Of a stretch of DNA of 64,000 nucleotides, positions 6,205 through 30,752 are shown piece after piece. Positions within the stretch are counted from its first letter, which is position 1; each line of letters starts with the position of its first letter. This stretch comes from a virus. The stretch covers positions 18,145-82,144 of IMG/VR virus record IMGVR_UViG_3300008050_005857; one strand, written 5' to 3'. The notes beneath the pieces are model-generated. The model made no database searches. It worked only from the letters and a program-made list of their open reading frames with translations, and was not told where the DNA came from. The translations under genes and the position numbers were made by a program.

Positions 6205-6510
6205 ATGTTTAATAGATATAATAATGCAAGAATAAAAAGAGATGAAAAAACCCAATCTAGGTATTTTAAGCCGTCTTTTTACCCGGACATACCTGAAAAA
6301 GATACAGATATTTTTCATACTGTTAGACCTGGTGAACGTTTAGATTTATTAGCACATAAATACTATAAAGATGTCGGACTGTGGTGGATCATAAGTAGAG
6401 CAAATAGATTAGATCCATCTGATATAGGGTTACGAGCTGCAACTCAACTTAGAATACCTACCGATATTGGAGAAGTAATCCGATCTTTTAAATCTATAAA
6501 CATGGAGTAA
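6205..6510 (+). CDS. LysM-like baseplate wedge protein (gp53-like)
   Basis: A 101-residue protein with a LysM-type segment at about residues 32-70 (HTVRPGERLDLLAHKYY, then W-W-I-I-S-R-A-N-R-L). Small LysM proteins at this position are typical of contractile-tail baseplates, such as T4 gp53 and its counterparts in contractile injection systems, where the fold helps join wedges to the hub. The length is short for gp53, so only the core may be kept. It lies between two large baseplate-type genes. It starts at ATG three bases after the preceding stop. Confidence 0.65.
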   Translation: MFNRYNNARIKRDEKTQSRYFKPSFYPDIPEKDTDIFHTVRPGERLDLLAHKYYKDVGLWWIISRANRLDPSDIGLRAATQLRIPTDIGEVIRSFKSINME

Positions 6511-6514
6511 TTCA

Positions 6515-9460
6515 TTGGGAATATTCAGAAAAAATATAGATCGCAATATTCAGATCGGATTAAATGCACGAATAAACGCAATGAGTACTTATGGTGAGAC
6601 GCCCATCATAAATGATCAATTATCTTCTGTTTCAGATCCAGAGTTACAAGCCGCTGAATTTACATTAAGTAAAGAGGCCCAAATTGCAAAATCACCATTC
6701 GTACGCTTAATCGCTCCAGGTACACAAAATACTCATATCCTATATGGTATGTTTAATACGACTATTGAATCTTCTGGTGTAACTAAAGCTGAATTTGGAT
6801 CTTCTGCGGTAGATGCATTTACTTCTTTACAAGATAATGTTAAAGGCTCTGAACAAGCGTTTTATAATCTAGATGATGCAACAAATTCTCAATCTGCGGG
6901 TTATGAGTTCGGAAGACCAACACCTGGAATAACACAAGTATCTGTTGATTTTATTAAGACAGGAGGAGCCGTAAGGAAAGCCACGATTAATTGGACAGTA
7001 TTTGGACTTAGCGATTTAGAAAAATATCATGAAACTTTTTTGTCTTTAGGCAGGTATGTGATATTAGATTGGGGTTGGGTTAGGAGCGTTAAAGGATTAG
7101 ACAATATTCCTTCATTAGTTAAAACTGAAGGTTCGCGAACACAAGTCGATCCTTCTCTATTTAAAAAGGAAGAAAAAGAGATTGACGGTAAAAAAGTTTC
7201 TAATGGCCCTTCAATGTGGCAAAAAATGTTTACTGATTATTATGGCGATTGGTCCGGACTAGTTGGAGTTATATCAAAATTCGATTGGGAACAAAGAGAA
7301 GATGGCGGCTTCAATTGTACTACAGAAGTAATGGCCCAAGGAACTAGCATATTTCAACAAGATTTACCTAAAGTAAAAGATAAAGCACTACGTCAAGAAG
7401 TTTCGATGGACGTAAAAAGTTTTGACGATTTTATGCTGGATTTTGCAAACGATTTATCCGGAGCCGTTAGAGATCATGAAGGAAATCCAATGCGACTTGA
7501 TCCATCTAAAGTACAAGAGACTATGTCCGGTCCCAAATTAAATATTGTAGAACGTATTGCAAGTCTTGACGTTGAAATAATGGATAAATATTTCGGACAC
7601 ATTATTGCGGAAAGACTTGATCTATTATCTAGAGTTCAGTCTGGAGAATTAACTGCGGGTACAGAAGAGTATGAAGGAGACAGTACTTATGAATTACCTG
7701 GAGCATTTCTTTCTAACGATAAAAATATTGCAGCAATAATACACCCAACTAATACTACCATTCCTGGAGGTTATGTTGAACTGTTCAGTAGTGAAAACGA
7801 AGATTCGACTAAACGCGCAGCAGATTTTTCATCTAATATATGGGTCAAATGGGGTTGGTTTGAAGATAATGTCGTATCGTATTATTGTAGAACTAGATCA
7901 AAAGATGGTCCACGTGACATTGAATTTAGATCTATAATGCCAGAAAAATTAAACGGTCCAACACACGCAATACCAATATACAATTCACCAGAACTTTGGA
8001 CATATGATCCATCATTGTTCATACTCCCAGGCCAAACTAATGAAGAGTGGTTTCAGCAAACTATACCAAAAGATGAAAACGGAAAAAACGGACCGCCCAT
8101 AGCGTCTTTATACGAAAAATTAGCAAAAAAAATTAATTCAAATTGTGAACCATTTGGTAATGATGCAAAAGATGTCGGATATCTTAGAAATATGTATGTA
8201 AACTTAAAACTCATCCAAAATAATTTCACCGCCGGCGCTCAAAGTATTAATAGTGCAATGTTAAATGTTTGTAGAGCATTAAATTCCGGAATAAAAATTT
8301 GGGATTGGGAAACATATTCACAAGACAATTTAACAAATACTTTAGTTACTCAATTCATATATGATAAAAATGACCCACCACGAATAACGAAACCGGCAAC
8401 GGATTCTAGTAGCGATCCACTTCCATCATTTGATGACGACCCTAAAAAAGCTTACATTTTTGAAAATTACGGTTTTAATTCGATAATAAAAGACGTTACT
8501 GTTAAAACAGAAATATCGAGTAAAATGTCCGCAATGATGGGAATAAATAGAGGGAATCCGGATAGTGAAACTACTGACGCAATAAAAACAATAATTAGTA
8601 AACCGCCTGGAAGTAAAAGTGATGCAGAAGTAGAAGCTGAAGCTTATGCAAACTTTTTTTCATCATTTAACCAAACAGATAAAGATACGTTAGCTTCTGG
8701 CGTTATTTCTGAAGACGATTCTACTTATGGAAATTCTTCCGTTACCACTTCTTCTCCGGGAAATTTAAATATATCTGGATTAGATTCGGCAACTACAAAG
8801 TGGAATCACAATATAAATCCATTATTGATACGCGCTAATCCAACGTCAAAAGCCAACTTTGCAGAAATGGCAGAAAAAAAGATGCATGAACAATTAGCTT
8901 CACAAGAATCAGAAATAACAACTGCCAGTGGAGATAAAGTAAAAGTAAGTGGCAATGCATTACCTACAGTAAAAGGTTCAAGTCAAGATCAAACCATTTT
9001 ACTCGAATACAGAAAACCCTATGGACTTGATGGAAAAATGAGAGCTCATTTTATACGAACATTACAATGGTACCATGAAGATAGTCCAATGACAATGGTT
9101 AAAGCTTCTTCATCAGATATATTAATGCCGTTAAGCGTTGATATGACATTGGAGGGCTGCGGTGGAATTTATCCAGGAAATGTATTTAGACTTGCGTATT
9201 TACCGGAAAGATACGGTCAAGTACCCACACCAGGGCAACTTCCTAAAACAGGTTTTGTTATAATGGGTGTAAACCATGAAATAACTGATGGCGGTTGGGA
9301 GACAAAAATAGATGCTCAAATGTATATGATAAAAAATAATGATCCAAAATCTGGAGAATCATCAGGTGAAATAACAAAGCGCGAATTCTATGCAGAGAAT
9401 AAAAACAAAATTGATGCTGCATTTAAAAAGAATTTCCAAAAGATGATTGATTTAGAATAA
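6515..9460 (+). CDS. Large baseplate hub-type structural protein
   Basis: A 981-residue protein starting at TTG 6515, chosen because GGAG lies seven bases upstream at 6504-6507 and the first ATG is 22 codons further on. An early section (about residues 160-200) reads INWTVFGLSDLEKY, then L-D-W-G-W. The last 130 residues hold a pattern of the form 'LEGCGGIYPGNVFRL', then FVIMGVNHEITDGGW and a Q-M end, as seen at the C-termini of hub proteins of the gp27 or late-control type. The hub assignment is inferred from that end and from neighbours. It ends in a TAATG overlap with the next gene. Confidence 0.5.
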   Translation: MGIFRKNIDRNIQIGLNARINAMSTYGETPIINDQLSSVSDPELQAAEFTLSKEAQIAKSPFVRLIAPGTQNTHILYGMFNTTIESSGVTKAEFGSSAVDAFTSLQDNVKGSEQAFYNLDDATNSQSAGYEFGRPTPGITQVSVDFIKTGGAVRKATINWTVFGLSDLEKYHETFLSLGRYVILDWGWVRSVKGLDNIPSLVKTEGSRTQVDPSLFKKEEKEIDGKKVSNGPSMWQKMFTDYYGDWSGLVGVISKFDWEQREDGGFNCTTEVMAQGTSIFQQDLPKVKDKALRQEVSMDVKSFDDFMLDFANDLSGAVRDHEGNPMRLDPSKVQETMSGPKLNIVERIASLDVEIMDKYFGHIIAERLDLLSRVQSGELTAGTEEYEGDSTYELPGAFLSNDKNIAAIIHPTNTTIPGGYVELFSSENEDSTKRAADFSSNIWVKWGWFEDNVVSYYCRTRSKDGPRDIEFRSIMPEKLNGPTHAIPIYNSPELWTYDPSLFILPGQTNEEWFQQTIPKDENGKNGPPIASLYEKLAKKINSNCEPFGNDAKDVGYLRNMYVNLKLIQNNFTAGAQSINSAMLNVCRALNSGIKIWDWETYSQDNLTNTLVTQFIYDKNDPPRITKPATDSSSDPLPSFDDDPKKAYIFENYGFNSIIKDVTVKTEISSKMSAMMGINRGNPDSETTDAIKTIISKPPGSKSDAEVEAEAYANFFSSFNQTDKDTLASGVISEDDSTYGNSSVTTSSPGNLNISGLDSATTKWNHNINPLLIRANPTSKANFAEMAEKKMHEQLASQESEITTASGDKVKVSGNALPTVKGSSQDQTILLEYRKPYGLDGKMRAHFIRTLQWYHEDSPMTMVKASSSDILMPLSVDMTLEGCGGIYPGNVFRLAYLPERYGQVPTPGQLPKTGFVIMGVNHEITDGGWETKIDAQMYMIKNNDPKSGESSGEITKREFYAENKNKIDAAFKKNFQKMIDLE

Positions 9461-10122
9461 TGGCAATAGAACGAACAGACGGGCCCTTTTTAACGGGTGA
9501 TCATGAATTTCACTATATAGATAGTGATTTATGGGTATTACCCGAAACATCATATTTTGTCCATTATTCAACTAATAAAATAGTAACATATGAATTAGAA
9601 CAAACAAAAGAACAGATTGTCGCTATGCGCAAAAAACCTTTTGAAGTATATCAAAGGATAACTAATCGATTAAGAGATATTTACCCAAAGAAAATTTATC
9701 CAACGGTGAAAAAATTACCGTTTGGACAGAAATTTATATCAAGGGTTTTTACACAAAGCAAGCTAATCCCTGGCGCGGAAATATATGAAACTATCTCTAA
9801 AACAAAGACAGCTAGTTATCGATTTGTAAAATTGGAATGGCAAATATCAGGGGCTGCAAGTCAAGCTGAATTACATAATTTTAATGAATTACAAAAAGCG
9901 GAAGCAATAATACCTGGTATATCTGAAGTAATTCCGGTTCTTCAATTGCATAAGACAAAAATCAGACGCGAAAAAGATCCTGCAAATTTGATTAAAAAGA
10001 ACCATCTTTACGCTAATTCAGCTACTGATGAGGTTTTACAAAATTTAACATCCCCTACAAAAGAACAATCTAGAACGTTTAAAAAGAAACGCAAGAGAAG
10101 ACGAAAATCTAAAAAGAAATAA
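9460..10122 (+). CDS. Virion-associated protein of unknown function, basic tail
   Basis: A 220-residue protein coupled by TAATG to the hub-type gene. No family is recognised. The body is mixed alpha/beta in character, and the last 20 residues are almost entirely Lys/Arg, which would suit binding to nucleic acid or to an acidic partner. It is the last gene of the tail block, and a new promoter-like box follows. A structural or assembly role is inferred from position only. Confidence 0.6.
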   Translation: MAIERTDGPFLTGDHEFHYIDSDLWVLPETSYFVHYSTNKIVTYELEQTKEQIVAMRKKPFEVYQRITNRLRDIYPKKIYPTVKKLPFGQKFISRVFTQSKLIPGAEIYETISKTKTASYRFVKLEWQISGAASQAELHNFNELQKAEAIIPGISEVIPVLQLHKTKIRREKDPANLIKKNHLYANSATDEVLQNLTSPTKEQSRTFKKKRKRRRKSKKK

Positions 10123-10164: not shown

Positions 10165-11460
10165 ATGGTTATAGAATCTCAATCAATGTATGATGACATG
10201 TTACGACATATTGCTGGCAAAGAGGTGTATGCAGTTGCGATAAGAGATGATTTTAGAACACATCCGGCCGAATCTATTCCTATTATTTTTTCAATATCTT
10301 GTGAAACTAAAATTTATGATATAGTATTTGACCATAGTGAATCAATGTCAAATAATTTAGATTTTACGCTATTATCATGTGCAAAACGTTTTTATGTTGA
10401 AGACATTAAACAGTTTTACCATCTCACAAAATTTAAAAACATATATGATGTCAAATTAAATTGCTGGATAAACGATAAACAATTTAAAGAAATAGAATTA
10501 CCAAAAGTATTCTCTCATATTTATTCTAATGCACCGGTAAATAGAGAGTCAAATAAAATAGTTCCACTATTTAAGGTTTTAGAGTATTCGCGTAACAAGC
10601 TTGCAAACGTTTTATTTCACTGTAATTCATTAGGCGTTTCTAAGCCGTTTTTAAAATATAACGATGCATTAATTCAATTGGCGATCGTGGAATCAAACGG
10701 TTTAAGAATTACTCCAGGATCCTATCATACTACTTTTAAAAACGGATATGCATTTAGTAATTACAATATACATACTGTAACCGGAAGACCTTCAAATACA
10801 TTTAATAATATTAATTTTGGTGCACTTAATAAATCTGATGGTACTAGGACCGCATTTATTTCTCGACATAAAAACGGCATGCTGATTGAAATGGACTATG
10901 ACGCATACCATTTAAGACTTTTAGCAGACATATTAGATTGGGATTTTCCCAAGCATAAGTCAGTACATCAATATTTTGCAGATGAAGTTTATCATTGTGA
11001 ATATAAAGAAGCAAAGAAATTATCATTTCAAATGTTATACGGTCAAATACAAACAACAGCTGAAAGAAACCCCTTTTTTTACGGTGTAGATAGGCTGTCT
11101 CAAGTACTGCTCGATTCTTTTACATCTGATAAATGTCTAAAATCTCATATTTATGGAAAAGAATTTTGTTTAAAGAATGTTGAAGATCTTAATAGGAGCA
11201 AACTATTAAATTATTTTATTCAATCTTTTGAAACTGAAAGAAACTTAAATGTGATAAAATCTGTCAACAAATTTCTTAAGACTAAGAGAACTAAAATGAC
11301 ATTATATACTTATGATAGTTTTTTGTTTGATTTTGATATTAATGAGGGACTAAATACATTGAAAGAATTAAAAGCACTATTAGAATCCGGCGGCTACCCT
11401 ATCAAAGCAAAAGCCGGTCAAACGTATCATGATATGAATGACATTACCGGGAGGTTATAA
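10165..11460 (+). CDS. Divergent family-A (Pol I-type) DNA polymerase-like protein
   Basis: A 431-residue protein with the core motifs of a family-A polymerase palm and fingers but no exonuclease domains. TGRPSN near 206-211 matches the conserved TGR-x-S segment. DYDAYHLRLLAD at 244-255 matches motif A (Asp244). KKLSFQMLYG at 284-293 matches the O-helix motif B. TYDSFLFDF near 382-390 takes the place of motif C, with Asp384 but Ser instead of the usual Glu. The N-terminal 190 residues are unlike known polymerase domains. A separate family-B replicative polymerase lies at 27.4-29.8 kb. Activity is uncertain because of the altered motif C. No Shine-Dalgarno is seen. Confidence 0.65.
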   Translation: MVIESQSMYDDMLRHIAGKEVYAVAIRDDFRTHPAESIPIIFSISCETKIYDIVFDHSESMSNNLDFTLLSCAKRFYVEDIKQFYHLTKFKNIYDVKLNCWINDKQFKEIELPKVFSHIYSNAPVNRESNKIVPLFKVLEYSRNKLANVLFHCNSLGVSKPFLKYNDALIQLAIVESNGLRITPGSYHTTFKNGYAFSNYNIHTVTGRPSNTFNNINFGALNKSDGTRTAFISRHKNGMLIEMDYDAYHLRLLADILDWDFPKHKSVHQYFADEVYHCEYKEAKKLSFQMLYGQIQTTAERNPFFYGVDRLSQVLLDSFTSDKCLKSHIYGKEFCLKNVEDLNRSKLLNYFIQSFETERNLNVIKSVNKFLKTKRTKMTLYTYDSFLFDFDINEGLNTLKELKALLESGGYPIKAKAGQTYHDMNDITGRL

Positions 11461-13667
11461 TGATACCAAAAAAATATAAAACTATGATAGCTGATGCACT
11501 AACTAGAGCATCTTATCGTACAAAAAATGGAATGATAGATCTATCAAACGATTTAGATTTATTCATAGTTGTTGAAGAATTACGTAAAGAATTTTCGGAA
11601 GATATAATTCAAAAAGCGTTATTTATTGAAATTTCTCAAAATGATGATGATTATACAAATATTGGCGGTTCTGGTTATGTATTGACAAAAGCTCTCCCAG
11701 ATGATTGGGACCAAGAAAAAGATGGTATCCCTTCTGATGCTCAACGGTTCACTAAAGGTAAAGATGGAAAATATAGTTCTTCAGGAAAGGAGAAGAAGGT
11801 GAAGGCTACATCACAAGCTTTAAGCCCACAGGATTTTCCAGAAATGGGAGACGAGGGTAAACCTGACGTTGATCCAAAACAAGTTGAAAAAGATAAGAAA
11901 AAAGCCGAAAAATTAGAAAGAGAAACAGAAGCTAAAAAAGAAGTTGTTAAAACTGAAACGAGTGGAACACTTGACCAGGTAGCATGGGAAAACGATACAG
12001 ATCAAGAAGAGTTTCAAACTGCATTTGATAAACTCGTCAATGGTGAAGAGCTCACTGAAGAAGAACTAGCAATGATAAATAAATATGCAGCCGTAAAAGA
12101 CAGCGATAGTGAAGCTGCCCTTTATTTGCCAAATCAAACGCCAGGTGATTTTAGACAAGGAGCAAGGGTTAAAGTAGAATTGGGAGGCAGTGCGGCAGCA
12201 AAAAGAGTATTGGCTCAAATGGTTGAAAATGGAATCCAAACTGCAGATCCTGTTACAACAGCTGAATCAGTACCAGCGAAATTGAAAACAAAAGATGCTA
12301 CATTAGGTAAAATATCGGGTGGAAAAACAAAATCACATACAATAACAACTGAAAAAGATAAAGACGGTAGGGTTATTTCTGTAACAGTTGCAGGTAAGGT
12401 TATGCGAAGGCAGCTTGAGCCTGATGCTGATGTACTCATTAAAGAAGTTGTTGAAATGATTGATCAAGGGAAATCTCCCGAAGACGCTGCACGTGAAGCG
12501 CAAAAAATCCTTGCTGGAATAAAACGATACAATAATTTAATTGATAAGTACGCATCTGCAGATCCTGCAGTAATGGAAACAGTTGAACTCGTCCCAGGCG
12601 CGGATGTATCTACACCAGAAGGAAGAAATAGAGTTGCTTCAGAAGGTCCAGGCATAGTAGCGGATGCATTAGAAAAAATGATAGATGACCCTACTGAAGC
12701 TGAACGGAAAGTACTTGATAGGATCAGAAAATTAGGTGATATTGAAGACGCAGAAGAATATGAACGTGAAGCCATGGCTATTTTAAAACGTATGGGTGAA
12801 ATTTCATCTATTAAAAAAGGAGCTCCTGATGTTGCTGAAGCATTAGTATTATGCGCAATGAATAAAAAGGGTATACCAACTGTAGCGCCAGCAGGAGAAA
12901 CTTTTAAGGTTGCAGATTTAATACAATTAGCTGAAGAAGATCTAGATCCTACAGATCCGGAATATTTACAAAAATTAGCAGCTGGTGGACCAGTTGTAGT
13001 ATTTATGACAACTGCTGGTGGATTAAGTGTTAAAAAAGATGGCGGCGCTGCATCAGGGTTTGAAGCAAAATTAGGAATGACAACGTTTAAGCTTCCTGAA
13101 ACAAAAAACATGCTAACAGCAATTTTAGACCACCACAATCATGGCATTGCAACTACAAAGAAGGGTGAAGAGTTATCTCCAACAAGAATAGCGACAGCAA
13201 AAAAGAAATTAGATGAAGTTGAAAAATGGGCCAGAGAAAATGATTTAGTTGATGATAACGATTTAAAATTTAAAGATGGTAGATCACCGGAAGAATGGGC
13301 AACTGATAGCGTTGCGGATTGGCAAGCAAAAGGTACATTACCACCAGATTGTCCAACAAAAAACGCTAAAGGTGAGTGCCTATCGGACGATAATAAGAAG
13401 AATTTGATCGACGGTCTTCACCAATACGCTCGGGGCGGGTTACTAGCTCAAGCAATTCACAATAACGATTTAGATTTCCAAGATTATCATAACGCAAACG
13501 CAAATACTAGAACTGGTGAAATTGAACTTAGTGATGGAATTGAGTGTTTAAATGATATGCAATTTTCTGCTAATCCAGGCTTTAAAATGAAAAAAGATAA
13601 AAACGGAAATTTTATAATGCGACCTAACGCTGTTTATGCCGGTAATTTACACAAGCGCTGCAGATGA
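11460..13667 (+). CDS. Acidic 735-residue protein of unknown function
   Basis: Coupled by TAATG to the polymerase-like gene. The product is rich in Glu, Asp, Lys and Ala, with a charged linker at about 100-180 and no membrane segment. The C-terminal 120 residues contain several Cys (C-P-T-K-N-A-K-G-E-C and a C-L-N-D block) and Asn/His-rich segments, and look like a separate folded domain. No family is recognised. Its place between tail genes and replication genes does not fix a function; a virion or DNA-metabolism role is possible. Confidence 0.7.
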   Translation: MIPKKYKTMIADALTRASYRTKNGMIDLSNDLDLFIVVEELRKEFSEDIIQKALFIEISQNDDDYTNIGGSGYVLTKALPDDWDQEKDGIPSDAQRFTKGKDGKYSSSGKEKKVKATSQALSPQDFPEMGDEGKPDVDPKQVEKDKKKAEKLERETEAKKEVVKTETSGTLDQVAWENDTDQEEFQTAFDKLVNGEELTEEELAMINKYAAVKDSDSEAALYLPNQTPGDFRQGARVKVELGGSAAAKRVLAQMVENGIQTADPVTTAESVPAKLKTKDATLGKISGGKTKSHTITTEKDKDGRVISVTVAGKVMRRQLEPDADVLIKEVVEMIDQGKSPEDAAREAQKILAGIKRYNNLIDKYASADPAVMETVELVPGADVSTPEGRNRVASEGPGIVADALEKMIDDPTEAERKVLDRIRKLGDIEDAEEYEREAMAILKRMGEISSIKKGAPDVAEALVLCAMNKKGIPTVAPAGETFKVADLIQLAEEDLDPTDPEYLQKLAAGGPVVVFMTTAGGLSVKKDGGAASGFEAKLGMTTFKLPETKNMLTAILDHHNHGIATTKKGEELSPTRIATAKKKLDEVEKWARENDLVDDNDLKFKDGRSPEEWATDSVADWQAKGTLPPDCPTKNAKGECLSDDNKKNLIDGLHQYARGGLLAQAIHNNDLDFQDYHNANANTRTGEIELSDGIECLNDMQFSANPGFKMKKDKNGNFIMRPNAVYAGNLHKRCR

Positions 13668-13687
13668 TTAAACTAAAAGGCATATTA

Positions 13688-14065
13688 ATGGAAGATAAGA
13701 TTGTGGATACCGCCGGTATAATAGTACGTTCAGATGCCGGCATTATTTTATGTAAAGAAAGAAATAGTGATTATCAATGGGGAATTCCAAAGGGTAAAGT
13801 TGACCCAGGTGAAACACCGATACATGCGGCATGCCGTGAGACGCTTGAAGAAGCTTCAATATTAGTTAAAGTAAATGGAAGCCATTTAAACACACCGGTC
13901 GAGGAAGTTAAAATTGCAAAAAATTCTAGAGGAGGTAAGTTTTTTATCTATGAATGCACTTTAAAACTATCAATAATACCAAATAAAAGTTTAGAACACG
14001 ATGAAGTAAAATATTTTAGAAACCTTCCAGAAAATATTGACACACGATTAGAAGGATTATTATAA
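13688..14065 (+). CDS. Nudix hydrolase
   Basis: A MutT/Nudix hydrolase that would cleave nucleoside diphosphates linked to another moiety, for housecleaning or nucleotide-pool control. The Nudix box GKVDPGETPIHAACRETLEE is intact apart from Ser in the final Gly position. ATG 13688 is preferred because AAAAGG lies seven bases upstream. An in-frame ATG at 13664 overlaps the previous stop but has no Shine-Dalgarno and would add eight residues. The gene ends in TAATG with the next gene. The exact substrate cannot be read from sequence. Confidence 0.88.
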   Translation: MEDKIVDTAGIIVRSDAGIILCKERNSDYQWGIPKGKVDPGETPIHAACRETLEEASILVKVNGSHLNTPVEEVKIAKNSRGGKFFIYECTLKLSIIPNKSLEHDEVKYFRNLPENIDTRLEGLL

Positions 14066-14454
14066 TGAAAACACAATTACTATGCACTTTTTGCGTAAAA
14101 CACGAATTTGACACAACTGTTGACCTAATATCTTTAGCTGCAAACGTTGTATTTAATAAAATATATGCGTTTGAAAATCTAGACGATCCTCAGCAAATAA
14201 TTTGTACTTATAATGTAGAAAAATTGGATGACTTTGTTCAAAACAATAAAACAATGGCGATCCACCGGAAAAAAGAAACTAATACTTTATATACTATAAA
14301 TGCTTTAAATGAAGCAATTCGTGAGAATAATGATGGAGTATTAGATAAGTCTTTTTCTTTAGACTGGTCAATGTATCAAAACAGTTTACTTCTTACGAAC
14401 GATAAAGGTCTTAACGTTGTAAAAACAAAATTATATAAAATTGTAAACGTCTAG
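14065..14454 (+). CDS. Conserved-looking phage protein, function unknown
   Basis: A 129-residue soluble protein coupled to the Nudix gene by TAATG. It opens with TQLLCTFCVKHEFD, and the two early Cys are spaced CTFC, so metal binding is possible. The centre contains AIHRKKETNTLYTINALN. No domain with known function is recognised. It lies directly before the selenoprotein-like gene, with eight bases between them. Confidence 0.7.
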   Translation: MKTQLLCTFCVKHEFDTTVDLISLAANVVFNKIYAFENLDDPQQIICTYNVEKLDDFVQNNKTMAIHRKKETNTLYTINALNEAIRENNDGVLDKSFSLDWSMYQNSLLLTNDKGLNVVKTKLYKIVNV

Positions 14455-15256: not shown

Positions 15257-16012
15257 ATGGATATTACCGCCATTAAGGCTCGCCTTAATCAACTTCAACA
15301 AGTTAATACAAGAACCTCTTCACTGTGGAAACCTTCACCAGGAAAATCTCAAGTGCGTATAGTACCTTATAAGCACAATCCGGATTCGCCATTTATTGAA
15401 TTATATTTCCATTATGATATCGGTGAAAGATCATACTTGTCACCTGCATCATTTGGCCGTCCAGATCCAATTGAAGAATTTGCAGTTAAGTTGAAAACAT
15501 CTGGAAATAAAGACGATTACAAATTAGGAAGAAAAATCGAGGCTAAAATGCGTACTTTCGCACCTGTTATAGTCCGCGGTGAAGAATCCGAAGGTGTAAA
15601 GTTTTGGGGTTTTGGTAAAACAGTTTATCAAGAGCTTCTTTCTATCATTGCAGATCCAGATTATGGTGATATTACTGATCCAGTAAGTGGTCGCGATATT
15701 GTAGTTGAGTTTAAAACTAAAGAAGAAACTGGTAAGTCATTTCCAATGACGGCTGTTCGTGCAAAACCAAATCAAACTCCGGTAACGGAAGATCCTGAGG
15801 TTATGAAGACAATCAAAGACACTCAAAAACAAATTACTGAGATTTACCAAGAGCAATCTTATGATGATTTAAAAGAAGTCCTAAGTGGATTTCTAAATCA
15901 AGAATCAGAGCTCAGTGATAGTGACTTAAATACTGATGCAGTAAAGACTCCAGTTAAAGCTGGTAAAACTGAAGATGTATCGAGTGCTTTTGACGATCTA
16001 TTCAACAACTAG
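15257..16012 (+). CDS. Single-stranded DNA-binding protein (gp32-like)
   Basis: A gp32-type SSB that would coat single-stranded DNA at the fork and during recombination. The 251-residue product opens with a basic helix, then WKPSPGKSQVRIVPYK at about 24-39 and FIELYFHYDIGERSYLSPASFG, the block typical of gp32-like proteins in marine T4-like phages. It ends in an acidic tail with DVSSAFDDLF that would recruit replication partners. It is shorter than T4 gp32, and no Zn-binding Cys cluster is seen. AGGAG precedes the start. A perfect palindrome lies after the gene and UvsX follows. Confidence 0.85.
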   Translation: MDITAIKARLNQLQQVNTRTSSLWKPSPGKSQVRIVPYKHNPDSPFIELYFHYDIGERSYLSPASFGRPDPIEEFAVKLKTSGNKDDYKLGRKIEAKMRTFAPVIVRGEESEGVKFWGFGKTVYQELLSIIADPDYGDITDPVSGRDIVVEFKTKEETGKSFPMTAVRAKPNQTPVTEDPEVMKTIKDTQKQITEIYQEQSYDDLKEVLSGFLNQESELSDSDLNTDAVKTPVKAGKTEDVSSAFDDLFNN

Positions 16013-16069: not shown

Positions 16070-17176
16070 ATGCCTAAAAAGAACAAAGATTCATTGGCGG
16101 TTGATTTAGCGGCTTCATTGAATAGTAAATTTAAAGGTCAAAAAGTTGCGTATTTCTTAGATGGAAAACACCAAACACCTACAGATGTAACAGACTTTAT
16201 CTCAACCGGTTCATCAATGCTAGATTTAGCAATATCTAATCAAGCGGATGGTGGAATAGCCGTAGGAAGAATTACAGAAATTAACGGTTTATCTTCAACA
16301 GGTAAATCTTTATTAGGTGCACACATACTTGCTGAAACACAAAAGAACGATGGTGTTGCCGTTTATATTGATACTGAAACATCTGTAAGTCGACAATTTT
16401 TAGAAGCCATTGGATGTGATATTCCAAATTTACTTTATCTTCATATTGAAACAGTAGAACAAATTTTTCAAGCAATAGAAGATATTATTTTAAAAGTTAG
16501 AGAGTCTGATAAAGACAAACAGGTTACAATTCTTGTAGATAGTTTAGCTGCAGCATCAACTGATGTCGAAATGGAATCAGATTACGGTAAAGACGGTTGG
16601 GCAACAACCAAAGCTCTTATTGTTTCAAAAGCTCTACGAAAACTTACACAGCTAATTGGACGACACAAAATTACTTTAGTTTTTACAAATCAATTAAGAC
16701 AAAAATTAGGTGTTATGTTCGGTGATCCATATACTACAAGTGGTGGACTTGCTTTACCATTTCATTCGTCAACGCGTATCAGACTTAAAAATATGGGCCA
16801 GATAAAAGATAAAGAAAAAAATGTTATCGGTGTTAAATGTAGAGCTCAAATTATTAAAAATAGAATTGGACCTCCAATGAGAACTGCGGATTATGACATG
16901 TATTTCGATCGTGGCATTGATGATGAAGGTGGATGGTTACAAGTTTTAAAAGGATTAGGCTACGCTAAAAGTAGTGGAGCATGGTGGACAATTGACTATA
17001 AAGGTGAACTTAAAAAATTCATGTCTAAAGATTTTGTCGAAATGCTAAATGATGATTCTGAATTTAAACAATATCTTTACGAGCTAATATGCAGTGAATC
17101 TATCCTCGAATATCAAGAACAACGAGGAATAGATGACGTTGAATTCACAGATGAAGTGATCAACGAAGATGCGTAA
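16070..17176 (+). CDS. uvsX: UvsX/RecA-like recombinase
   Basis: A 368-residue RecA-fold ATPase that would drive strand exchange in recombination-dependent replication and repair. Walker A is GLSSTGKS at 73-80. Walker B is TILVDSLAAAS near 157-167. A segment with VFTNQLRQ and G-L-A-L-P-F-H-S-S matches the recombinase core. It lies between the gp32-like and FEN-like genes, as expected for T4-type replication clusters. A GGGG-containing ribosome site precedes the ATG. The 3' end overlaps the next gene by eight bases. Confidence 0.9.
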   Translation: MPKKNKDSLAVDLAASLNSKFKGQKVAYFLDGKHQTPTDVTDFISTGSSMLDLAISNQADGGIAVGRITEINGLSSTGKSLLGAHILAETQKNDGVAVYIDTETSVSRQFLEAIGCDIPNLLYLHIETVEQIFQAIEDIILKVRESDKDKQVTILVDSLAAASTDVEMESDYGKDGWATTKALIVSKALRKLTQLIGRHKITLVFTNQLRQKLGVMFGDPYTTSGGLALPFHSSTRIRLKNMGQIKDKEKNVIGVKCRAQIIKNRIGPPMRTADYDMYFDRGIDDEGGWLQVLKGLGYAKSSGAWWTIDYKGELKKFMSKDFVEMLNDDSEFKQYLYELICSESILEYQEQRGIDDVEFTDEVINEDA

Positions 17177-18182
17177 GCGATATGCCGACATTTTAAAACA
17201 AATCAATTCGACAGTTAACGTCACATCTACATTAGATGATCATGTTTTACTTGTTGATGGTTTGAATAACTTCATCCGGGCTTGGTCTGCTTCCCCTGCG
17301 ACCAACTCGGATGGAGATCATATTGGTGGAATGCTTGGCTTCTTACAAAGTGTTGGATTAGCAATTCGGACTATCCGACCAACAAGAGTCATCATTGCTT
17401 TTGATGGTCCTGGTGGAAGTCAACGAAGACGTAAAATCTATCCAGGTTATAAAGATAAACGAAAACCGCCAAAACGTCCTCATAGATTTAGGGAAATGGA
17501 TAATGAAGATGATCAAGAAAGTCTAAGTAGACAGATAAAACGATTAGGCGAATACCTCCAAAATCTTCCACTAACTTCAGTAACAATACCAAATATCGAA
17601 GCAGACGATACTATTGGCTACATAGCAAAGTCTCTTCTCAGTAATTCTAAGATAACTATAATGTCTTCGGATAAAGATTTTTTACAATTAGTCGATGACA
17701 GAATAACCGTATGGTCTCCGACTAAAAAAATCTTATTTGATAGAGCAAAAACAGAATCTGAGTATGAAATGCTTTCAGAGAATTTAGTATATTATAGAAT
17801 TATCGATGGAGACAAGTCTGATAATATTCCAGGTATAAAGGGTTACGGATTAAAAACAATACTAAAAAAAGTGCCATTTTTGAAAGATACGAAAATAACT
17901 AATATTAGTGACTTTATTGTAAATTCCGGACTAACATTGCATAAAGAGCTATTAGAAAGAAATTATACACTAATGCAGTTACATGACGTAAATATATCAG
18001 GAAATGCAAAATCAAACATAATGGAAATAGTCTCTGCACAGCCAAGCAGATTAGTGAAATATAAGTTGCATACAATGTTTTTAGAAGATAAAATTAATCA
18101 ATCAATTCGAAATCCGGATGTATGGCTTCAAGATACTTTTAACGCGTTAGACTTAGTGATCGCAAATGCCTCCAGTAATTGA
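17169..18182 (+). CDS. FEN/5'-3' exonuclease (T4 RNase H-like)
   Basis: A 337-residue member of the 5' nuclease superfamily that would remove RNA primers and flaps on the lagging strand. Visible signatures are LLVDGLNNFIRAW, IIAFDGPGGSQRRRKIYPGY, the acidic metal-site motif IEADDTIGYI, SSDKDFLQLVDD and the helix-hairpin-helix block GDKSDNIPGIKGYG. The start lies inside the end of uvsX, and the 3' end overlaps the helicase gene by 17 bases, so the three genes form one translational unit. Confidence 0.9.
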   Translation: MRKRYADILKQINSTVNVTSTLDDHVLLVDGLNNFIRAWSASPATNSDGDHIGGMLGFLQSVGLAIRTIRPTRVIIAFDGPGGSQRRRKIYPGYKDKRKPPKRPHRFREMDNEDDQESLSRQIKRLGEYLQNLPLTSVTIPNIEADDTIGYIAKSLLSNSKITIMSSDKDFLQLVDDRITVWSPTKKILFDRAKTESEYEMLSENLVYYRIIDGDKSDNIPGIKGYGLKTILKKVPFLKDTKITNISDFIVNSGLTLHKELLERNYTLMQLHDVNISGNAKSNIMEIVSAQPSRLVKYKLHTMFLEDKINQSIRNPDVWLQDTFNALDLVIANASSN

Positions 18183-19545
18183 TTCATTACAAAAATTTGG
18201 AACAGGATTCCAAACAAAGGTTATAACGTGTATTCTTGTAGACGAAGAGTTTATACAAACAATTTATGATATGATTCAACCTGAACAACTTGATACTGAA
18301 GCTAAGCAGTGGATTGTTCGAGAAATCAAATCATATTTTTATGAGTATAAACACGTCCCAACACTTGATAGTTTAAAAGTAAAATTAAATTCTGTTAAAA
18401 GTGAGATATTAAAAGAGGCAATAATAGACGAACTTCGTCAAGTTATGAAGTACGTTGAAGCAACCGATTTAGCATTTGTAAAGGATCAGACATTAGAATT
18501 TTGTAAAAATCAAGCACTTAAAGCCGCAATAATGCAATCAGTTGACCTGTTACATCAGCAACGATATGATGAAATAAAACGTGTAGTTGATAATGCATTA
18601 CGAGCTGGAACACGAAGAGATATAGGTTTAAATTATGTAAAAGATTTTGATACTATATTAGAAGATGTTTCAAGATTGACGGTAAGTACTGGCTGGGACG
18701 CTGTAGATGGTATTACAGATGGCGGTTTAGCAGGAGGTGAATTAGGAATCGTTGTTGCACCTTCTGGTGTTGGTAAAAGCTGGTTATTGCAAGCGCTAGG
18801 TGCGAATGCGTTAAGAGCCGGAAAAAATGTTATGCATTATACACTTGAATTAAATCAAGCGTATGTTGGTTTGAGATATGCGGCGATATTTTCTAAGCTT
18901 GAAACTTCACAAATTAAAGAGCAAAAAGATAAAGTCAAAAAAATGATTACAGATCAAGTTAAAGGTGAATTGCTCATTAAATATTGGCCTTCAAAATCCG
19001 CAACTGTACAGACCGTGTTTACACATCTAAAGACCGCGGAATTATTAGGCCATTCTCCAGATATAATACTATTAGATTATGCGGATTTACTAAATGATAC
19101 TTCAGGTCAAGGGGAAATCCGTCATCAGCTTGGAACAATTTATGAAGATTTACGAGGTTTAAGTGGAGAATTTAATGTTCCAATTTGGACCGCATCGCAA
19201 TCAAATCGTTCAAGTATTGATTCAGAAACAATTGGAGCTGAAAAAATCGCAGAATCTTATAATAAAATAATGACCGCGGATTTCGTAATGAGTTTATCTC
19301 GAAAAGTTGAAGATAAAATCGCAAATACCGGTAGAGTACATATAATTAAGAATAGATTCGGTCCCGATGGTTTAACATTTCCAACAACAATGAATACCTC
19401 TAATGGCCAAATAGACGTTTATGAAGCCGGCAGCGGTAGCGGTGTTCAAGTGCAAAATAAAATGAAAAATGGGAATGAATATGTTAGGAAATTACTTAAA
19501 AAACGTTATGATGAATTTGAAACTGTTATTAATGAACCCGATTAA
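18166..19545 (+). CDS. Replicative DnaB-type helicase (gp41-like)
   Basis: A 459-residue hexameric helicase of the DnaB/gp41 family that would unwind DNA at the fork. The N-terminal 150 residues form a helical domain. Walker A is APSGVGKS at 198-205. H-Y-T-L-E-L-N-Q follows, and the Walker B strand is IILLDYADLL with Asp304. TASQSNRSS near 340 matches the DnaB motif 3 region. It starts inside the end of the FEN gene. No separate primase gene is visible in this window. Confidence 0.9.
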   Translation: MPPVIDSLQKFGTGFQTKVITCILVDEEFIQTIYDMIQPEQLDTEAKQWIVREIKSYFYEYKHVPTLDSLKVKLNSVKSEILKEAIIDELRQVMKYVEATDLAFVKDQTLEFCKNQALKAAIMQSVDLLHQQRYDEIKRVVDNALRAGTRRDIGLNYVKDFDTILEDVSRLTVSTGWDAVDGITDGGLAGGELGIVVAPSGVGKSWLLQALGANALRAGKNVMHYTLELNQAYVGLRYAAIFSKLETSQIKEQKDKVKKMITDQVKGELLIKYWPSKSATVQTVFTHLKTAELLGHSPDIILLDYADLLNDTSGQGEIRHQLGTIYEDLRGLSGEFNVPIWTASQSNRSSIDSETIGAEKIAESYNKIMTADFVMSLSRKVEDKIANTGRVHIIKNRFGPDGLTFPTTMNTSNGQIDVYEAGSGSGVQVQNKMKNGNEYVRKLLKKRYDEFETVINEPD

Positions 19546-21585: not shown

Positions 21586-22455
21586 ATGCAAGGTTTTAAA
21601 AATCTTAATGAAATGTATTGGTATCTTTTAGCGGATCTTGATAGTGAAGGGCTAGAAGTTAGCAGTAGAGGTTCAAATCAAAAAGAAAAAATATATGTTC
21701 AATGTGGATTTAATGATCCAACTGATTTACAAGTACTATATCCAAGTAGAAAATTTAATCAGGAATATGCAATGACTGAATGGTTGTGGTATTGTTCACT
21801 TGATTCAAACGTAAAAAACATAGGAAAATTGGCTCAACTATGGAAACGCATATCAGATGACAATAATCACGTTGAATCTAATTATGGTCCTTATTTCTTT
21901 AATCCCATTAATCAACCACATTTTCAAGGTAGTCAATGGGAATGGGTTAAAGAAGAACTAATTAATGATCCAGATAGTAGAAGAGCCTCGATTGTTATTA
22001 ATCAACCATATCATAAAGGAAAAAATCCATTAGACGTTCCATGTACACAATATGTTCAATTTTTCATTCGCCAAAATAAATTACACTTAGGCGTTTCAAT
22101 GAGATCAAATGATATTGTTTATGGTTTAACCAATGATGCGTTTACATTCAGTTTATTTCAGCAGATGATGTATAATGAGTTAAAACTTAAAATGCCAGAT
22201 TTAGAGCTTGGAACGTATAATCATTTTGCTGGATCGATGCATGTGTATGAAATGCATTATGAAATGGCAAGCAAAATCTTATCAGAATCCGAATATATCA
22301 ATGAGAAAACTGATAGGAAATTTAAGCTTAAAGAAGATATCACATGGAATGTTATGATGAAAGATATAAATCCAAAATCAAAACTTATTGCGGATTCTCC
22401 TAAAGACGAAATTTTAGAGTATGTTAAAGAAAAAGAAAAGGAATTATTTGAATGA
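21586..22455 (+). CDS. dCMP hydroxymethylase-like ThyA-fold enzyme
   Basis: A thymidylate synthase superfamily enzyme of 289 residues. Catalytic Cys153 lies in DVPCTQYVQF, the phosphate-binding Arg lies in DPDSRRASIV, and MRSNDIVYGLTND spans 172-184. The residue eight after Asp176, which is Asn in thymidylate synthases and reads dUMP, is Asp184 here. That Asn-to-Asp change is the hallmark of dCMP-specific members such as T4 gp42, whose MRSND segment this one closely resembles from memory. It would make 5-hydroxymethyl-dCMP or a related C5-modified dCMP. It heads a cassette and overlaps the kinase gene (ATGA). Confidence 0.8.
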   Translation: MQGFKNLNEMYWYLLADLDSEGLEVSSRGSNQKEKIYVQCGFNDPTDLQVLYPSRKFNQEYAMTEWLWYCSLDSNVKNIGKLAQLWKRISDDNNHVESNYGPYFFNPINQPHFQGSQWEWVKEELINDPDSRRASIVINQPYHKGKNPLDVPCTQYVQFFIRQNKLHLGVSMRSNDIVYGLTNDAFTFSLFQQMMYNELKLKMPDLELGTYNHFAGSMHVYEMHYEMASKILSESEYINEKTDRKFKLKEDITWNVMMKDINPKSKLIADSPKDEILEYVKEKEKELFE

Positions 22456-24190: not shown

Positions 24191-25092
24191 GAGTCAATAG
24201 CGAATTTGGAAAATTAAAATCGGTATTATTACATGTCCCAACACGAGAAGAATTTGCATTTAATTCTGCAGAAGACATGATGTTTTTAGAAGAACCAAAT
24301 TATGATAAAGTTTTATATGAAATAAATGCATACATTGAATTATTGGAATCTTTAGATATTACGGTTTATACGGATATAGGATTTCCTCTTAGAACATCAA
24401 TGGCTGTTGAATTTCCAAATCTTATTTACATGAAAGATTTAGCAATAGCAACTCCTGATCAGTTGATTCTTTGTCGTCCACATCACGATGTACGTAAAGG
24501 TGAAGAAGTATATTTACACAAGCTATTAAAACACATTGGCGTAACGGATGATCAGATCAATTTTATTCCAGTAGGGGATCATGAAGGAGCAGATATTGTA
24601 TGGTTAAATCCAAAAAAGATCATGATAAATGAAGGTTATCGTACAACTTTTAAAGCATCCGAAGAAATATCTAGATTTTTTAATTCACGATATGATATTG
24701 ATTCTCATAAAATTGAAGGTAATAAACATCACCAAATACCTCAACATATTCAAGGATCAAAGCATATTTTTTCATTGACCAATGCTGCATACAGAAAAGA
24801 ACTCGAGCCGTGGGACATGGATTTTGAAAATACATACGCGTTTAGTGAAACAGAAGAAATTGTAAAAGGCTTTTCATTAAACGTTATTACAGTGAATGAA
24901 AATGAAATTATAATGCCATCTGAATGTCCTGAAACTAAGGCAGCTTATGAATCTTTAGGTGTTAAATGTCACGAGTCTCCAATGAGCGAAATAACAAAGG
25001 GCGCTGGTGGATTTGCATGCATGACACTATTTTTAAATAGAGAAAAAGTATGGATGGGATTACTTCCGGAAGGATTACCAAATGAATATTAA
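24181..25092 (+). CDS. Amidinotransferase/pentein-family enzyme
   Basis: A 303-residue pentein of the glycine amidinotransferase/DDAH/arginine deiminase type. VNSEFGKLKSVLLHVPTREE is the usual opening. HEGADIVWLNPKKIMI near residue 134 holds the substrate-binding acidic residues, and GGFACMTL near residue 280 holds the nucleophilic Cys. Such enzymes move an amidino group from arginine or hydrolyse guanidino groups. It overlaps the sulfotransferase-like gene and the second ThyA-fold gene. Making a guanidinylated modification is an attractive inference but is not shown. Confidence 0.75.
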   Translation: MDIGVNSEFGKLKSVLLHVPTREEFAFNSAEDMMFLEEPNYDKVLYEINAYIELLESLDITVYTDIGFPLRTSMAVEFPNLIYMKDLAIATPDQLILCRPHHDVRKGEEVYLHKLLKHIGVTDDQINFIPVGDHEGADIVWLNPKKIMINEGYRTTFKASEEISRFFNSRYDIDSHKIEGNKHHQIPQHIQGSKHIFSLTNAAYRKELEPWDMDFENTYAFSETEEIVKGFSLNVITVNENEIIMPSECPETKAAYESLGVKCHESPMSEITKGAGGFACMTLFLNREKVWMGLLPEGLPNEY

Positions 25093-25840
25093 AACTTGTA
25101 ATACTGCAGGTGAAGCATTTGAATGGATGAGAGACGCCGTTAAGACTCGCGGATATGTCCATGAATCCCGTGGTAAACGCACTAAAGAATTAATGCATGT
25201 AATGGTTGAAATAAAACGTCCTGACATGTCAGTTGTATGTATACCAAGTTTCAAGTGGGATTTTATTTCACAGGAAGTTAGAGATATAATGACTGAAAAT
25301 GATGTTAGTGCAATTCATTCAAAAGAAATGTTGGAATATACCATGGGCAGCCCTGATGCAAAATTCTTCTTCGGTGCTGAAGTCCGCGAAGCATTATCAC
25401 CATGGTCTCTTGATGCAATATTTGAGTTGTTTAAACAAGATAAAGATACTCGAAAAGCCGTATTAGATTTAGGAAATCGTAAACCTGAAGAGCATATTCC
25501 CTGTCTTTCGTTCGCCCACTTAGTAATTAGAGATAACAAGTTACATTGCACCCTTGAAACACGCAGTACAGATTTAGCATTTGGGTATCCATACGATACA
25601 GTTTTATTTACAGTTATGCAAAGATATATGTTACACAGATTGCAAGAAATATATCCTGAGTTAAAATTAGGTTCATTCTTTTATAAAAGTATTTGCATGC
25701 ATTATTACTTAAAGAATAATGATACACCACTAAAAGATTTAAACTTAACAACTAATGATCCAGAGGATTGCTGGTTACCTCCAGATACTCAAGGCTGGTT
25801 TGAAGATTGCATCATATCAGGAGATCCAAATCATGCCTAG
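25082..25840 (+). CDS. Second ThyA-fold enzyme with dCMP-type specificity residue
   Basis: A 252-residue divergent thymidylate synthase-fold protein. Cys141 in EEHIPCLSF is in the catalytic position. RSTDLAFGYPYD spans 161-172. Eight residues after Asp164 there is Asp172 where thymidylate synthase has Asn, the same change as in the gene at 21.6 kb. MHYYLKN takes the place of the GDxHxYxNH motif. The N-terminal 110 residues are shorter than usual. It may act on dCMP, or on modified dCMP or DNA, as the second step of one pathway. It overlaps genes on both sides. Confidence 0.7.
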   Translation: MNIKTCNTAGEAFEWMRDAVKTRGYVHESRGKRTKELMHVMVEIKRPDMSVVCIPSFKWDFISQEVRDIMTENDVSAIHSKEMLEYTMGSPDAKFFFGAEVREALSPWSLDAIFELFKQDKDTRKAVLDLGNRKPEEHIPCLSFAHLVIRDNKLHCTLETRSTDLAFGYPYDTVLFTVMQRYMLHRLQEIYPELKLGSFFYKSICMHYYLKNNDTPLKDLNLTTNDPEDCWLPPDTQGWFEDCIISGDPNHA

Positions 25841-27375: not shown

Positions 27376-29826
27376 ATGTCATTTGAACTAACCCGCATTG
27401 CTTCTAAGTTCAATAAAGGTCAATTTAAAATGTTTTTAACAGGCTATGAAGATGGAAAGCGTGTAACAAAGTATGATATGTTTCAAGATTATTTCTATTA
27501 TGATACTGAACATATTTCTGACGTTGAAAGCAAGCCCGGGTTTACAGTTGATAAGACTTCTGAAATAAAAACCATTGACGATAAAAAGGGCTATAAAGTA
27601 AATTATACATCAATCGTCAATAAGAAAAGATTTATCAGAAAACATACGGACAGATCATATATTGCCGATGTATCACCTGAATTCAAATATATTCAAGATA
27701 AGAATCTGAAATGGTCACATAAACGTAACATATGTTTTTTTGATATTGAAACGTGGTATGATCCTGATAATCCAAGAGCAAACAAACCTGATAATGCCCA
27801 AATGCCTATTACATCAATGGTTGCATATGCAGTTGATACTGAAAAATATTTTGTATTTTCTTGGCATCCTGAACATACTAAAAATGATGAAAAACCTAGA
27901 CGTGAAGATAAAGATAATGTTGCATTCATCTATCTAAAAGACGAAGAAACCATGATCGAAGCGTTTCTTTATTATGTTAAGAAAAACAATGTAGATGTTC
28001 TCACAGGATGGTATTCATCGCAATTTGATTTACCATACATTATAAACCGGTGCAAAAACTTAGATATTGATTATTCCAAGCTTTCTCCAGTTGGTTACAT
28101 TAAAATGTATAAAAAACAAGATTATTTTAAATTAACAGTCAATGGTCTTGACTGTATTGATCTTATGGATTCTATGCAAGACCTTGGATTTAAACTCACA
28201 AATTGGAAACTTGATACAGCTGCGAAAGAAGTTGTTGGAACAGTAGAAAAAATGACAGAGTTTACATGGAAAGACTGGCTTGAAAATTATGAAGGGTTTT
28301 TAGAATATAATATACAAGACGTAAAAATACTTCTTGAAATAGAAAAGAAATTAAATATTTTTTCTTTGTATTGTATTATTCAAGAGATTGCGGGTCTTGA
28401 AGCTTTTAAGTTTATATTCTTTAAATCGATGCTAGTTGACTATTACATTCTTAAAGCCTTTAACGGCAAAATGCTTTTTCCAACACAACAAGTAAAACAG
28501 CGACAATCATTTGCAGGCGCCATTGTATTAGATCCACAAGAGCCGGGAGGCCATGAAGATGTTGCAACATTAGATTATACATCTCTATATCCAACAAGCA
28601 TAATGGCATTTAATATTAGCCCTGAAACTTTTATTTGCAGTGAAGAAAATGCCATAGAAGAAACCGGAATGACAATCGATCAAATCGCCAGCGAGTTAAA
28701 AACTAGGAAGATTGATTTCATAGATACTGGTCATGATGCAACCTTATTCGGCAAACGCTATCTGTTTTTTGGTCACTCTCACAGACTGGGTATTATGCCC
28801 TTTCTGTTGAAAACGTTATTCTTAATGCGTAAAGATATTAATGCAAAGTTAGACGCTGGTGAAATACCTGAAAAAGATAGAGTTGCAAACGAACGCAAAC
28901 AGCGAGCTATTAAATTAATTCTTAATTCCGCATATGGGGCTATGGGTTTTAATTATTTTAGAATGTATAAGCCTGAATGCGCTGATGCAACAACGTATTT
29001 CGGTAGACAAGCGTTATTGTACGCTGTTGATACAATGAAAAATGAGTATGACATGCCAGTTTTATATGGCGATACTGATTCAACTTTTGTAAAACAAAAT
29101 GGCAAATCTATTAATCAAATTGTAGATTTACTTGAAGGTGATTTTACAGATAAACTTAGAAATGTATTTGTTCCAAAGTACTCAACAACAGTTAATGACG
29201 ATTACTTTTATCTTGATCTTAAATTTGAAAAAGATCTTGAACATGTATATTTTGGTAATGCTAAAAAACGTTATTATGGTATTGAACGAACCTCCGGTAA
29301 GCGGTACATCCGTGGCCTAAACATTATTCGTAAAGACGCTCCAACATATTGTAAAAAGATACTCGACACCCTTGCAGAAAAAGCTGTAAGAGGCAAGTTA
29401 ACAGCGGATGATCTTATACGTATACGTAAAGAGATTGCTCAAGTACCGTTAAGTCAAATTGGTATTGTCAAAAGTTTTAGTAAACGATTTGAAGAGTATA
29501 TTAAAAGTAAACCTCAACATCTTACAGCGTGCCAATGGGCTAATGAAATATTTGACATCAGCATCAATAATATGGACAAGCCATTACTGTTTTATGCTAC
29601 AGCGCTACAAGAAGATCACTTAAAACCTAAAAAACGTCATCGTGCAATATGTGTACTTGACGATCAATTAGATCTTTTAAAGAAAGAAAATGAATTTTTC
29701 AAACTCGATTATGATACATTTTTTAAAAAGCAAATTTACGAACAACTAGAAGAATTTAGTCAAATACCCTATATTGAAACTATTTTAAAGGAATATGATG
29801 AAACGGCGAAGACTATTAACTTTTAA
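27376..29826 (+). CDS. Family-B replicative DNA polymerase (gp43-like)
   Basis: An 816-residue B-family polymerase with 3'-5' exonuclease. Exo I is FFDIET with Asp123 and Glu125. Exo II is near WYSSQFDLPY, and Exo III near YNIQDVKIL. Polymerase motif A is LDYTSLYPTS (Asp400), motif B is KLILNSAYGAMG, and motif C is YGDTDS (Asp566, Asp568). It is slightly shorter than T4 gp43 (about 900 residues). AAAGGA precedes the ATG. It is the likely main replicase; the family-A-like ORF at 10.2 kb is separate. Confidence 0.95.
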   Translation: MSFELTRIASKFNKGQFKMFLTGYEDGKRVTKYDMFQDYFYYDTEHISDVESKPGFTVDKTSEIKTIDDKKGYKVNYTSIVNKKRFIRKHTDRSYIADVSPEFKYIQDKNLKWSHKRNICFFDIETWYDPDNPRANKPDNAQMPITSMVAYAVDTEKYFVFSWHPEHTKNDEKPRREDKDNVAFIYLKDEETMIEAFLYYVKKNNVDVLTGWYSSQFDLPYIINRCKNLDIDYSKLSPVGYIKMYKKQDYFKLTVNGLDCIDLMDSMQDLGFKLTNWKLDTAAKEVVGTVEKMTEFTWKDWLENYEGFLEYNIQDVKILLEIEKKLNIFSLYCIIQEIAGLEAFKFIFFKSMLVDYYILKAFNGKMLFPTQQVKQRQSFAGAIVLDPQEPGGHEDVATLDYTSLYPTSIMAFNISPETFICSEENAIEETGMTIDQIASELKTRKIDFIDTGHDATLFGKRYLFFGHSHRLGIMPFLLKTLFLMRKDINAKLDAGEIPEKDRVANERKQRAIKLILNSAYGAMGFNYFRMYKPECADATTYFGRQALLYAVDTMKNEYDMPVLYGDTDSTFVKQNGKSINQIVDLLEGDFTDKLRNVFVPKYSTTVNDDYFYLDLKFEKDLEHVYFGNAKKRYYGIERTSGKRYIRGLNIIRKDAPTYCKKILDTLAEKAVRGKLTADDLIRIRKEIAQVPLSQIGIVKSFSKRFEEYIKSKPQHLTACQWANEIFDISINNMDKPLLFYATALQEDHLKPKKRHRAICVLDDQLDLLKKENEFFKLDYDTFFKKQIYEQLEEFSQIPYIETILKEYDETAKTINF

Positions 29827-30669: not shown

Positions 30670-30752
30670 TGGTAATGTTTACTATGGTATTTATTGGTAG
30701 TTTAATAATGTGGTTTTTAATAGAACAAGAATCAAAGAGGCGAAGAAAATGA
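30669..30752 (+). CDS. 27-residue single-pass membrane peptide
   Basis: This short ORF starts in a TAATG overlap with the DUF1599-type gene and stops in an ATGA overlap with glutamine synthetase. The product has a hydrophobic stretch of about 18 residues (MFTMVFIGSLIMWFL) followed by E-Q-E-S-K-R-R-R-K, so the basic tail should stay in the cytoplasm. The double overlap with real genes is the main support. It may only be a coupling element. Confidence 0.55.
   Translation: MVMFTMVFIGSLIMWFLIEQESKRRRK

Follow-up and report, generated by a model that had tools for sequence, protein, structure and literature searches.

A predicted second, family-A DNA polymerase with an altered nucleotide pocket in a group of mostly marine phages

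Why would a phage that already has a family-B replicase also encode, beside its tail genes, a short protein with the motifs of bacterial DNA polymerase I? The question is raised by one gene in a 64,000-nucleotide stretch of DNA (the window) taken from IMG/VR virus record IMGVR_UViG_3300008050_005857, positions 18,145 to 82,144. A sequence-only reading had described its product, here called mini-PolA, as a stand-alone family-A polymerase core, and had proposed that it might be a repurposed, translesion or inactive polymerase. The features on which our analysis rests are collected in Table 1.

The family-B replicase (PolB) of that reading is indeed present and intact, and a role for mini-PolA as the backup for a broken PolB was consequently rejected. 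PolB was found in 14 of the 21 mini-PolA records tested (8/12 and 6/9), many of these records being fragments. The complete genome of Flavobacterium phage immuto is without PolB and encodes a 777-aa PolA, gp199, together with the small mini-PolA, gp001. Because the companion enzyme is PolB in most records and gp199 in immuto, mini-PolA is the second polymerase in both settings. A primase role was rejected as unnecessary, given that DnaG is present in the larger records; a homologue was found in six of eight mini-PolA records, the other two being fragments, and a search with the DNAG_N profile matched no DnaG. T4 manages with one replicative polymerase, and a conserved second polymerase in a large, mostly marine phage group points to labour divided among polymerases. 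As a separate observation on PolB, the match in the uncultured 484-kb phage LR756508.1 (260623-266900, L084-L086) falls into three pieces spread over two ORFs and separated by about 0.9 and 4.3 kb, possibly an intein or a split gene.

Table 1. Features of the mini-PolA locus and of the replicase gene, in window coordinates
Feature	Position	Strand	Basis
Baseplate wedge protein (gp53-like), upstream	6205..6510	+	phrog_7145 E 3.9e-11; 39/39 relatives with enough flank
Large tail-module protein, upstream	6515..9460	+	72/72 relatives with enough flank
220-aa protein directly upstream of mini-PolA	9460..10122	+	ORF without family match
Promoter-like box CATATATATT, 5-14 nt before the mini-PolA start codon	10151..10160	+	box counts in relatives
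Mini-PolA, 431-aa family-A DNA polymerase core with degenerate exonuclease domain	10165..11460	+	Pfam, AlphaFold2 model, structural match
Vestigial 3'-5' exonuclease-like domain, residues about 1-130	10165..10554	+	structural alignment, in which model residue 1 pairs with Bst residue 302 at its start
T206-G-R-P-S210 (TGRPS) = TGR668LS	10780..10794	+	E. coli PolA alignment; R208 in 94/94
Motif A EMDYDAYHLRL; D244 = KF D705 (kept), H249 = KF E710 (Glu to His at the sugar steric gate)	10888..10920	+	alignment, residue counts
O-helix; Y280 = KF R754 (changed), K284 = K758, F288 = F762, Y292 = Y766, G293 = G767	11002..11043	+	alignment, residue counts
N349-Y-F-I-Q353 = KF N845...Q849	11209..11223	+	Q353 invariant, N349 in 93/94
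Motif C Y383-D384-S385 = KF H881-D882-E883	11311..11319	+	Y and D invariant; S 85/94, A 9/94
735-aa protein, start overlaps mini-PolA stop by one base	11460..13667	+	ORF
Nudix hydrolase, overlaps both neighbours (735-aa and 129-aa genes)	13664..14065	+	PF00293 E 1.6e-13
129-aa partner gene o129, just before gp32	14065..14454	+	112/113 relatives with enough flank; AlphaFold2 pLDDT 92.7
gp32-like single-strand DNA-binding protein	15257..16012	+	PF08804 E 4.5e-13; 95/101 relatives with enough flank
RecA-type recombinase	16070..17176	+	PF00154 E 6.5e-55; 88/93 relatives with enough flank
Stand-alone Pol I-type 5'-3' nuclease (FEN)	17169..18182	+	PF02739 E 9.3e-33; 74/80 relatives with enough flank
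DnaB-type helicase	18166..19545	+	PF03796 E 4e-17; 31/34 relatives with enough flank
Family-B replicase, polymerase and exonuclease (proofreading) motifs intact	27376..29826	+	PF00136 E 5.3e-45, PF03104 E 2e-17; translation

Fold and motifs of mini-PolA

Mini-PolA is almost certainly a family-A polymerase. Pfam DNA_pol_A matches residues 185-296 of the window protein (E 4.4e-7; 29.6 bits, a little below the curated cut-off of 34.3) and reaches 43.9 bits against the immuto orthologue when the match pieces are joined; no PHROGs or NCBIfam model matched the window protein. The Pol I motifs named in the sequence-only reading are present (TGRPS at 206-210, DYDAYHLR with D244 in motif A, and K284, F288 and Y292-G293 in the O-helix), as is its Tyr-Asp-Ser at motif C. 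The alignment is in register with E. coli PolA and T7 DNA polymerase, and further equivalences are R208 with R668, R228 with R682 and H268 with H734.

The AlphaFold2 model, built with 42 homologues as input, has a pLDDT of 87.3 and a pTM of 0.87, and its top structural matches are the Bacillus Pol I large fragment and Klentaq, both with Z about 28. The alignment with the Bacillus fragment (VIA Z 28.1, 3.8 Å) spans 400 residues and covers model residues 1-425, so that the fold check proposed earlier returned a right-hand polymerase. Antibody matches from a single-sequence PDB search were rejected as low-score noise. The full-length structural match, together with a homologous family under a low median dN/dS (see below), indicates that the ORF is not a chance one.

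Since the very first model residue is already part of the match to Bacillus Pol I, we infer that the N-terminal part is a degenerate 3'-5' exonuclease domain. The KF exonuclease carboxylates D355, E357 and D501 are not kept in it, and an Asp or Asn stays at D424. The earlier statement that the protein lacks exonuclease domains is therefore right for the 5' nuclease domain, which is absent, and wrong for the 3'-5' domain, which persists in degenerate form. The hand itself is also shortened: on a distant alignment, which makes both figures approximate, the thumb has about 35 aligned residues versus 103 in Klenow, and the fingers segment 766-845 has 58 versus 80. The reduced thumb and the absence of proofreading suggest low processivity.

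Conservation, neighbourhood and upstream box

With the single protein as query, IMG/VR yielded 120 relatives, and a scan with an eight-sequence alignment raised this to at least 560 confirmed relatives, carried by hundreds of phage genome fragments, mostly marine. Among bacterial and archaeal genome contigs only three MAG contigs match (Flavobacteriales, Flammeovirgaceae and an uncultured bacterium), and these may be phage contigs inside bins. In the MAG behind one of them (L194, G022) the host RecA spans six in-frame TGA codons, which suggests a bacterium with an alternative code; the mini-PolA gene on its contig is without such stops. Nine records of an annotated phage collection match, the close ones being Microcystis phage Mel-JY01, the uncultured 484-kb phage and the Flavobacterium immuto phages. 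The protein is currently annotated as 'hypothetical protein' or 'DNA polymerase family A' in the two isolates that were looked at, and our search of the openly accessible literature found no publication on the family.

Conservation was counted over 94 sequences sharing less than 90% identity. The equivalents of R668, D705, K758, Y766, G767, Q849 and D882 are invariant in all 94 (R208, D244, K284, Y292, G293, Q353 and D384), so that the Asp residues of motifs A and C, whose loss in homologues the sequence-only reading had thought worth checking, are kept throughout. Three departures in the nucleotide pocket are just as invariant, namely His for E710, Tyr for R754 and Tyr for H881, and the Glu883 position holds Ser in 85 sequences and Ala in nine. 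All background PolAs sampled keep Glu710 and His881; R754Y and E883S are present in some of them, and Tyr in place of R754 is not exclusive to mini-PolA, as other viral PolAs (L315-L322) carry it. The median dN/dS is 0.126 over 556 mini-PolA pairs, and 0.117 between the window protein and its relative L004. Monophyly of the clade is firmly supported (UFBoot 100), and its stem is long, at 1.7 substitutions per site, with weakly supported adjoining nodes (UFBoot 75-79) where it joins family A. Mini-PolA is a real, widespread and, in the literature searched, undescribed clade of a known superfamily, with a characteristic pocket.

The gene lies, as had been noted, beside tail genes; these are upstream and include baseplate genes. 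The further statement that it is not with replication genes does not hold, because genes for gp32, RecA, the 5'-3' nuclease and DnaB follow at a distance of 4-8 kb on the downstream side. Nearly all relatives share this arrangement, and the link is found even in the most distant ones (L193 and L229). Overlap or tight spacing with the next gene is common among relatives. The best NCBIfam match of the FEN protein is to residues 2-200 of DNA polymerase I (E 1.3e-38). The o129 protein, possibly a replication co-factor, has 19 invariant residues including T63, H67, R68 and K69, and its AlphaFold2 model gave no convincing structural match. A defence role for mini-PolA was rejected after PADLOC returned no match.

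Of 45 relatives in which the gap upstream of mini-PolA is free, 30 have the AT box there, against 6 expected; this count is biased, since the pattern was set after viewing these very upstream sequences. Counts free of this bias place the same kind of box before ribonucleotide reductase (RNR) in 15 of 32 cases and before gp32 in 0 of 82; before RecA it is found in 0 of 61. The box is not rare as such in the AT-rich window genome. In about 40% of loci the mini-PolA start overlaps or abuts the upstream ORF. These patterns make a separate promoter for the operon probable in many relatives. What had been called a late-type box is a real and conserved AT box, although its occurrence before RNR makes the 'late-type' label doubtful. 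The timing of mini-PolA may differ from that of the replication genes, because the box is absent before gp32 and RecA and because the gene is often translationally close to tail-module genes.

Other parts of the window yielded observations of their own. A repeated element, TTAGGTTAGACCGTACAATAAA, whole or partial and with a -10-like TACAAT, precedes several genes (about 47.1, 55.7, 60.0, 61.8 and 62.4 kb) and is a candidate for the phage's early promoter. At 50124-51249 lie ORFs whose N-termini resemble those of type IV prepilins, which is unusual in a phage; the clearest is at 50803 (GFTLIELVMVTIILGILAAVAIPRYTQ). The thymidylate synthase family is matched twice (21586-22455, E 2e-20; 25082-25840, E 6.6e-7), perhaps by base-modifying enzymes. 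A glutamine synthetase gene is found at 30710-31792 (PF00120 E 3.3e-23), and a VWA/CobT-like protein (55717-57765) near an AAA ATPase-like protein (60053-61186), possibly as a MoxR-VWA pair.

Activity and possible roles

Mini-PolA is predicted, with high confidence, to be catalytically active, since a deep clade has kept the catalytic residues unchanged and since the PolA of Thermus phage Tt72 tolerates changes at the Glu710 and Glu883 positions. Tt72 PolA naturally carries Ser at the Glu883 position, and its S616A variant retains 76% activity (PMC9324360). Its E389A variant, at the Glu710 equivalent, retains 35%, and Ala at either catalytic Asp leaves 4% (PMC9324360). The earlier suggestion of an inactive protein finds no support, in view of this natural Ser in an active enzyme, the invariant catalytic residues and the low dN/dS; the polymerase core is distinct from the replicase, and the suggestion of a repurposed one fits.

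With moderate confidence we propose that mini-PolA is an accessory, non-proofreading polymerase for short patches, filling gaps or serving repair beside the phage replicase. The full-length fold, the invariant catalytic residues, the dN/dS, the lost exonuclease residues, the shortened thumb and fingers, the synteny and the separate replicase all speak for such a role. Mini-PolA and the stand-alone 5' nuclease would then provide in trans what bacterial Pol I combines in one chain. Short-patch synthesis by mini-PolA, whose gene lies near those of gp32 and RecA, would replace RNA primers and close the gaps that recombination or repair leaves behind in a recombination-rich phage replication. T4, on the other hand, fills its Okazaki gaps with its own PolB and RNase H, and a second gap-filling enzyme is therefore not obviously needed. 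The possible difference in timing from the replication genes likewise tells against the gap-filling role. The Glu710-to-His change would alter the selectivity for sugar or base, and the invariant changes at 710, 754 and 881 point to a specialised substrate more than to simple gap filling. Perhaps, though we think this improbable, the clade-wide rebuilding of the sugar gate (Glu710His with His881Tyr) serves ribonucleotides or another non-standard substrate handled by a dedicated second polymerase.

Translesion or mutagenic synthesis, by an exonuclease-less family-A enzyme bypassing damage in a role like that of Pol theta or nu, is unlikely but keeps a modest chance. It would agree with the missing proofreading, the altered pocket and the linkage to RecA and gp32, and Pol theta structures are among the top Foldseek rows; there, however, they are tied with Klenow and Bst rows, and Bst comes first by Z. 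Pol theta and nu are extended by inserts, whereas the thumb and fingers of mini-PolA are shortened and without inserts of that type, and no sequence feature predicts bypass.

The chance is slim that the steric-gate His permits rNTPs, and with them the extension of RNA primers or the filling of gaps while dNTPs are scarce. Glu710 is the steric gate by which Pol I excludes ribonucleotides (PMC13228545, PMC9324360), growth of E. coli is poor when its Pol I is mutated at E710 (PMC13136892), and the split at this position between the sampled background PolAs (Glu) and every mini-PolA (His) is what favours ribonucleotide tolerance. His, however, remains a bulky residue that may keep out the 2'-OH; nearly all members retain F288 and Y292, which lie around the sugar, and mini-PolA phages encode both RNR and DnaG.

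Slimmer still is the chance of a polymerase that finishes genomes late or travels in the virion, is produced together with the tail genes and repairs gaps either ahead of packaging or as soon as the DNA has entered. The tail-module gene upstream in every relative with enough flank and the frequent contact with the preceding ORF would suit such an enzyme; the box at the operon head also precedes RNR, a non-structural gene, and the downstream replication genes stay linked even in the most distant relatives, which both argue against it. An inactive relic with a structural or DNA-binding role, to which the unusual motif C and pocket residues and the lack of proofreading might point, is very unlikely because both catalytic Asp and the dNTP-binding Lys and Tyr are invariant across a very divergent clade whose median dN/dS is so low.

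The family offers a natural test of the role of Glu710 in Pol I, and the isolate immuto, with Flavobacterium LMO8 as laboratory host, makes genetics on mini-PolA possible. A compact, exonuclease-less polymerase may also find practical use.

Comparison with known polymerases

Two family members belong to named phages. Immuto gp001 (YP_010114413.1, 'DNA polymerase family A') has the same motifs and the same place before gp32, RecA, 5' nuclease and DnaB, in a phage that differs from the window phage in its full-length PolA replicase. The Mel-JY01 member (WWT39333.1, 'hypothetical protein') is 27-28% identical to the window protein and has Glu at the His734 equivalent, and PolB lies elsewhere in that 190,001-base genome record.

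DpoZ, the aminoadenine-incorporating phage polymerase, is likewise a phage-borne family-A enzyme, specialised for its nucleotide, but has a full Klenow-like architecture (PMC8775771). The NCBIfam model for DpoZ, NF038380, gave no match to the window mini-PolA and 26.6 bits (E 1.9e-6) to the distant relative L229, against a cut-off of 500 bits. The PolAs of Thermus phage Tt72, proven active (PMC9324360), and of Roseobacter phage CRP-3 share with mini-PolA the Ser at the Glu883 position. Both differ from it in keeping Glu710, CRP-3 also in keeping His881, and Tt72 in having an active 3'-5' exonuclease (PMC9324360).

Compared with canonical Pol I and the T7-type replicative PolAs, mini-PolA has neither Glu710 nor His881, and its three exonuclease carboxylates are lost. 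In canonical bacterial Pol I the 5' nuclease belongs to the same protein; here it is on a separate gene, and mini-PolA starts at the exonuclease-like domain. The nearest likeness is to the bacterial Pol I large fragment (Klenow; Bacillus stearothermophilus), with which mini-PolA shares, across residues 1-425, the fold and the order of the domains, and also a vestigial exonuclease domain like that of the Bacillus enzyme and the catalytic Asp, Lys, Tyr and Gln. Mini-PolA departs from it in size, about 430 residues versus about 580-605, in Glu710His, Arg754Tyr, His881Tyr and Glu883Ser/Ala, and in the very long branch on which its clade stands.
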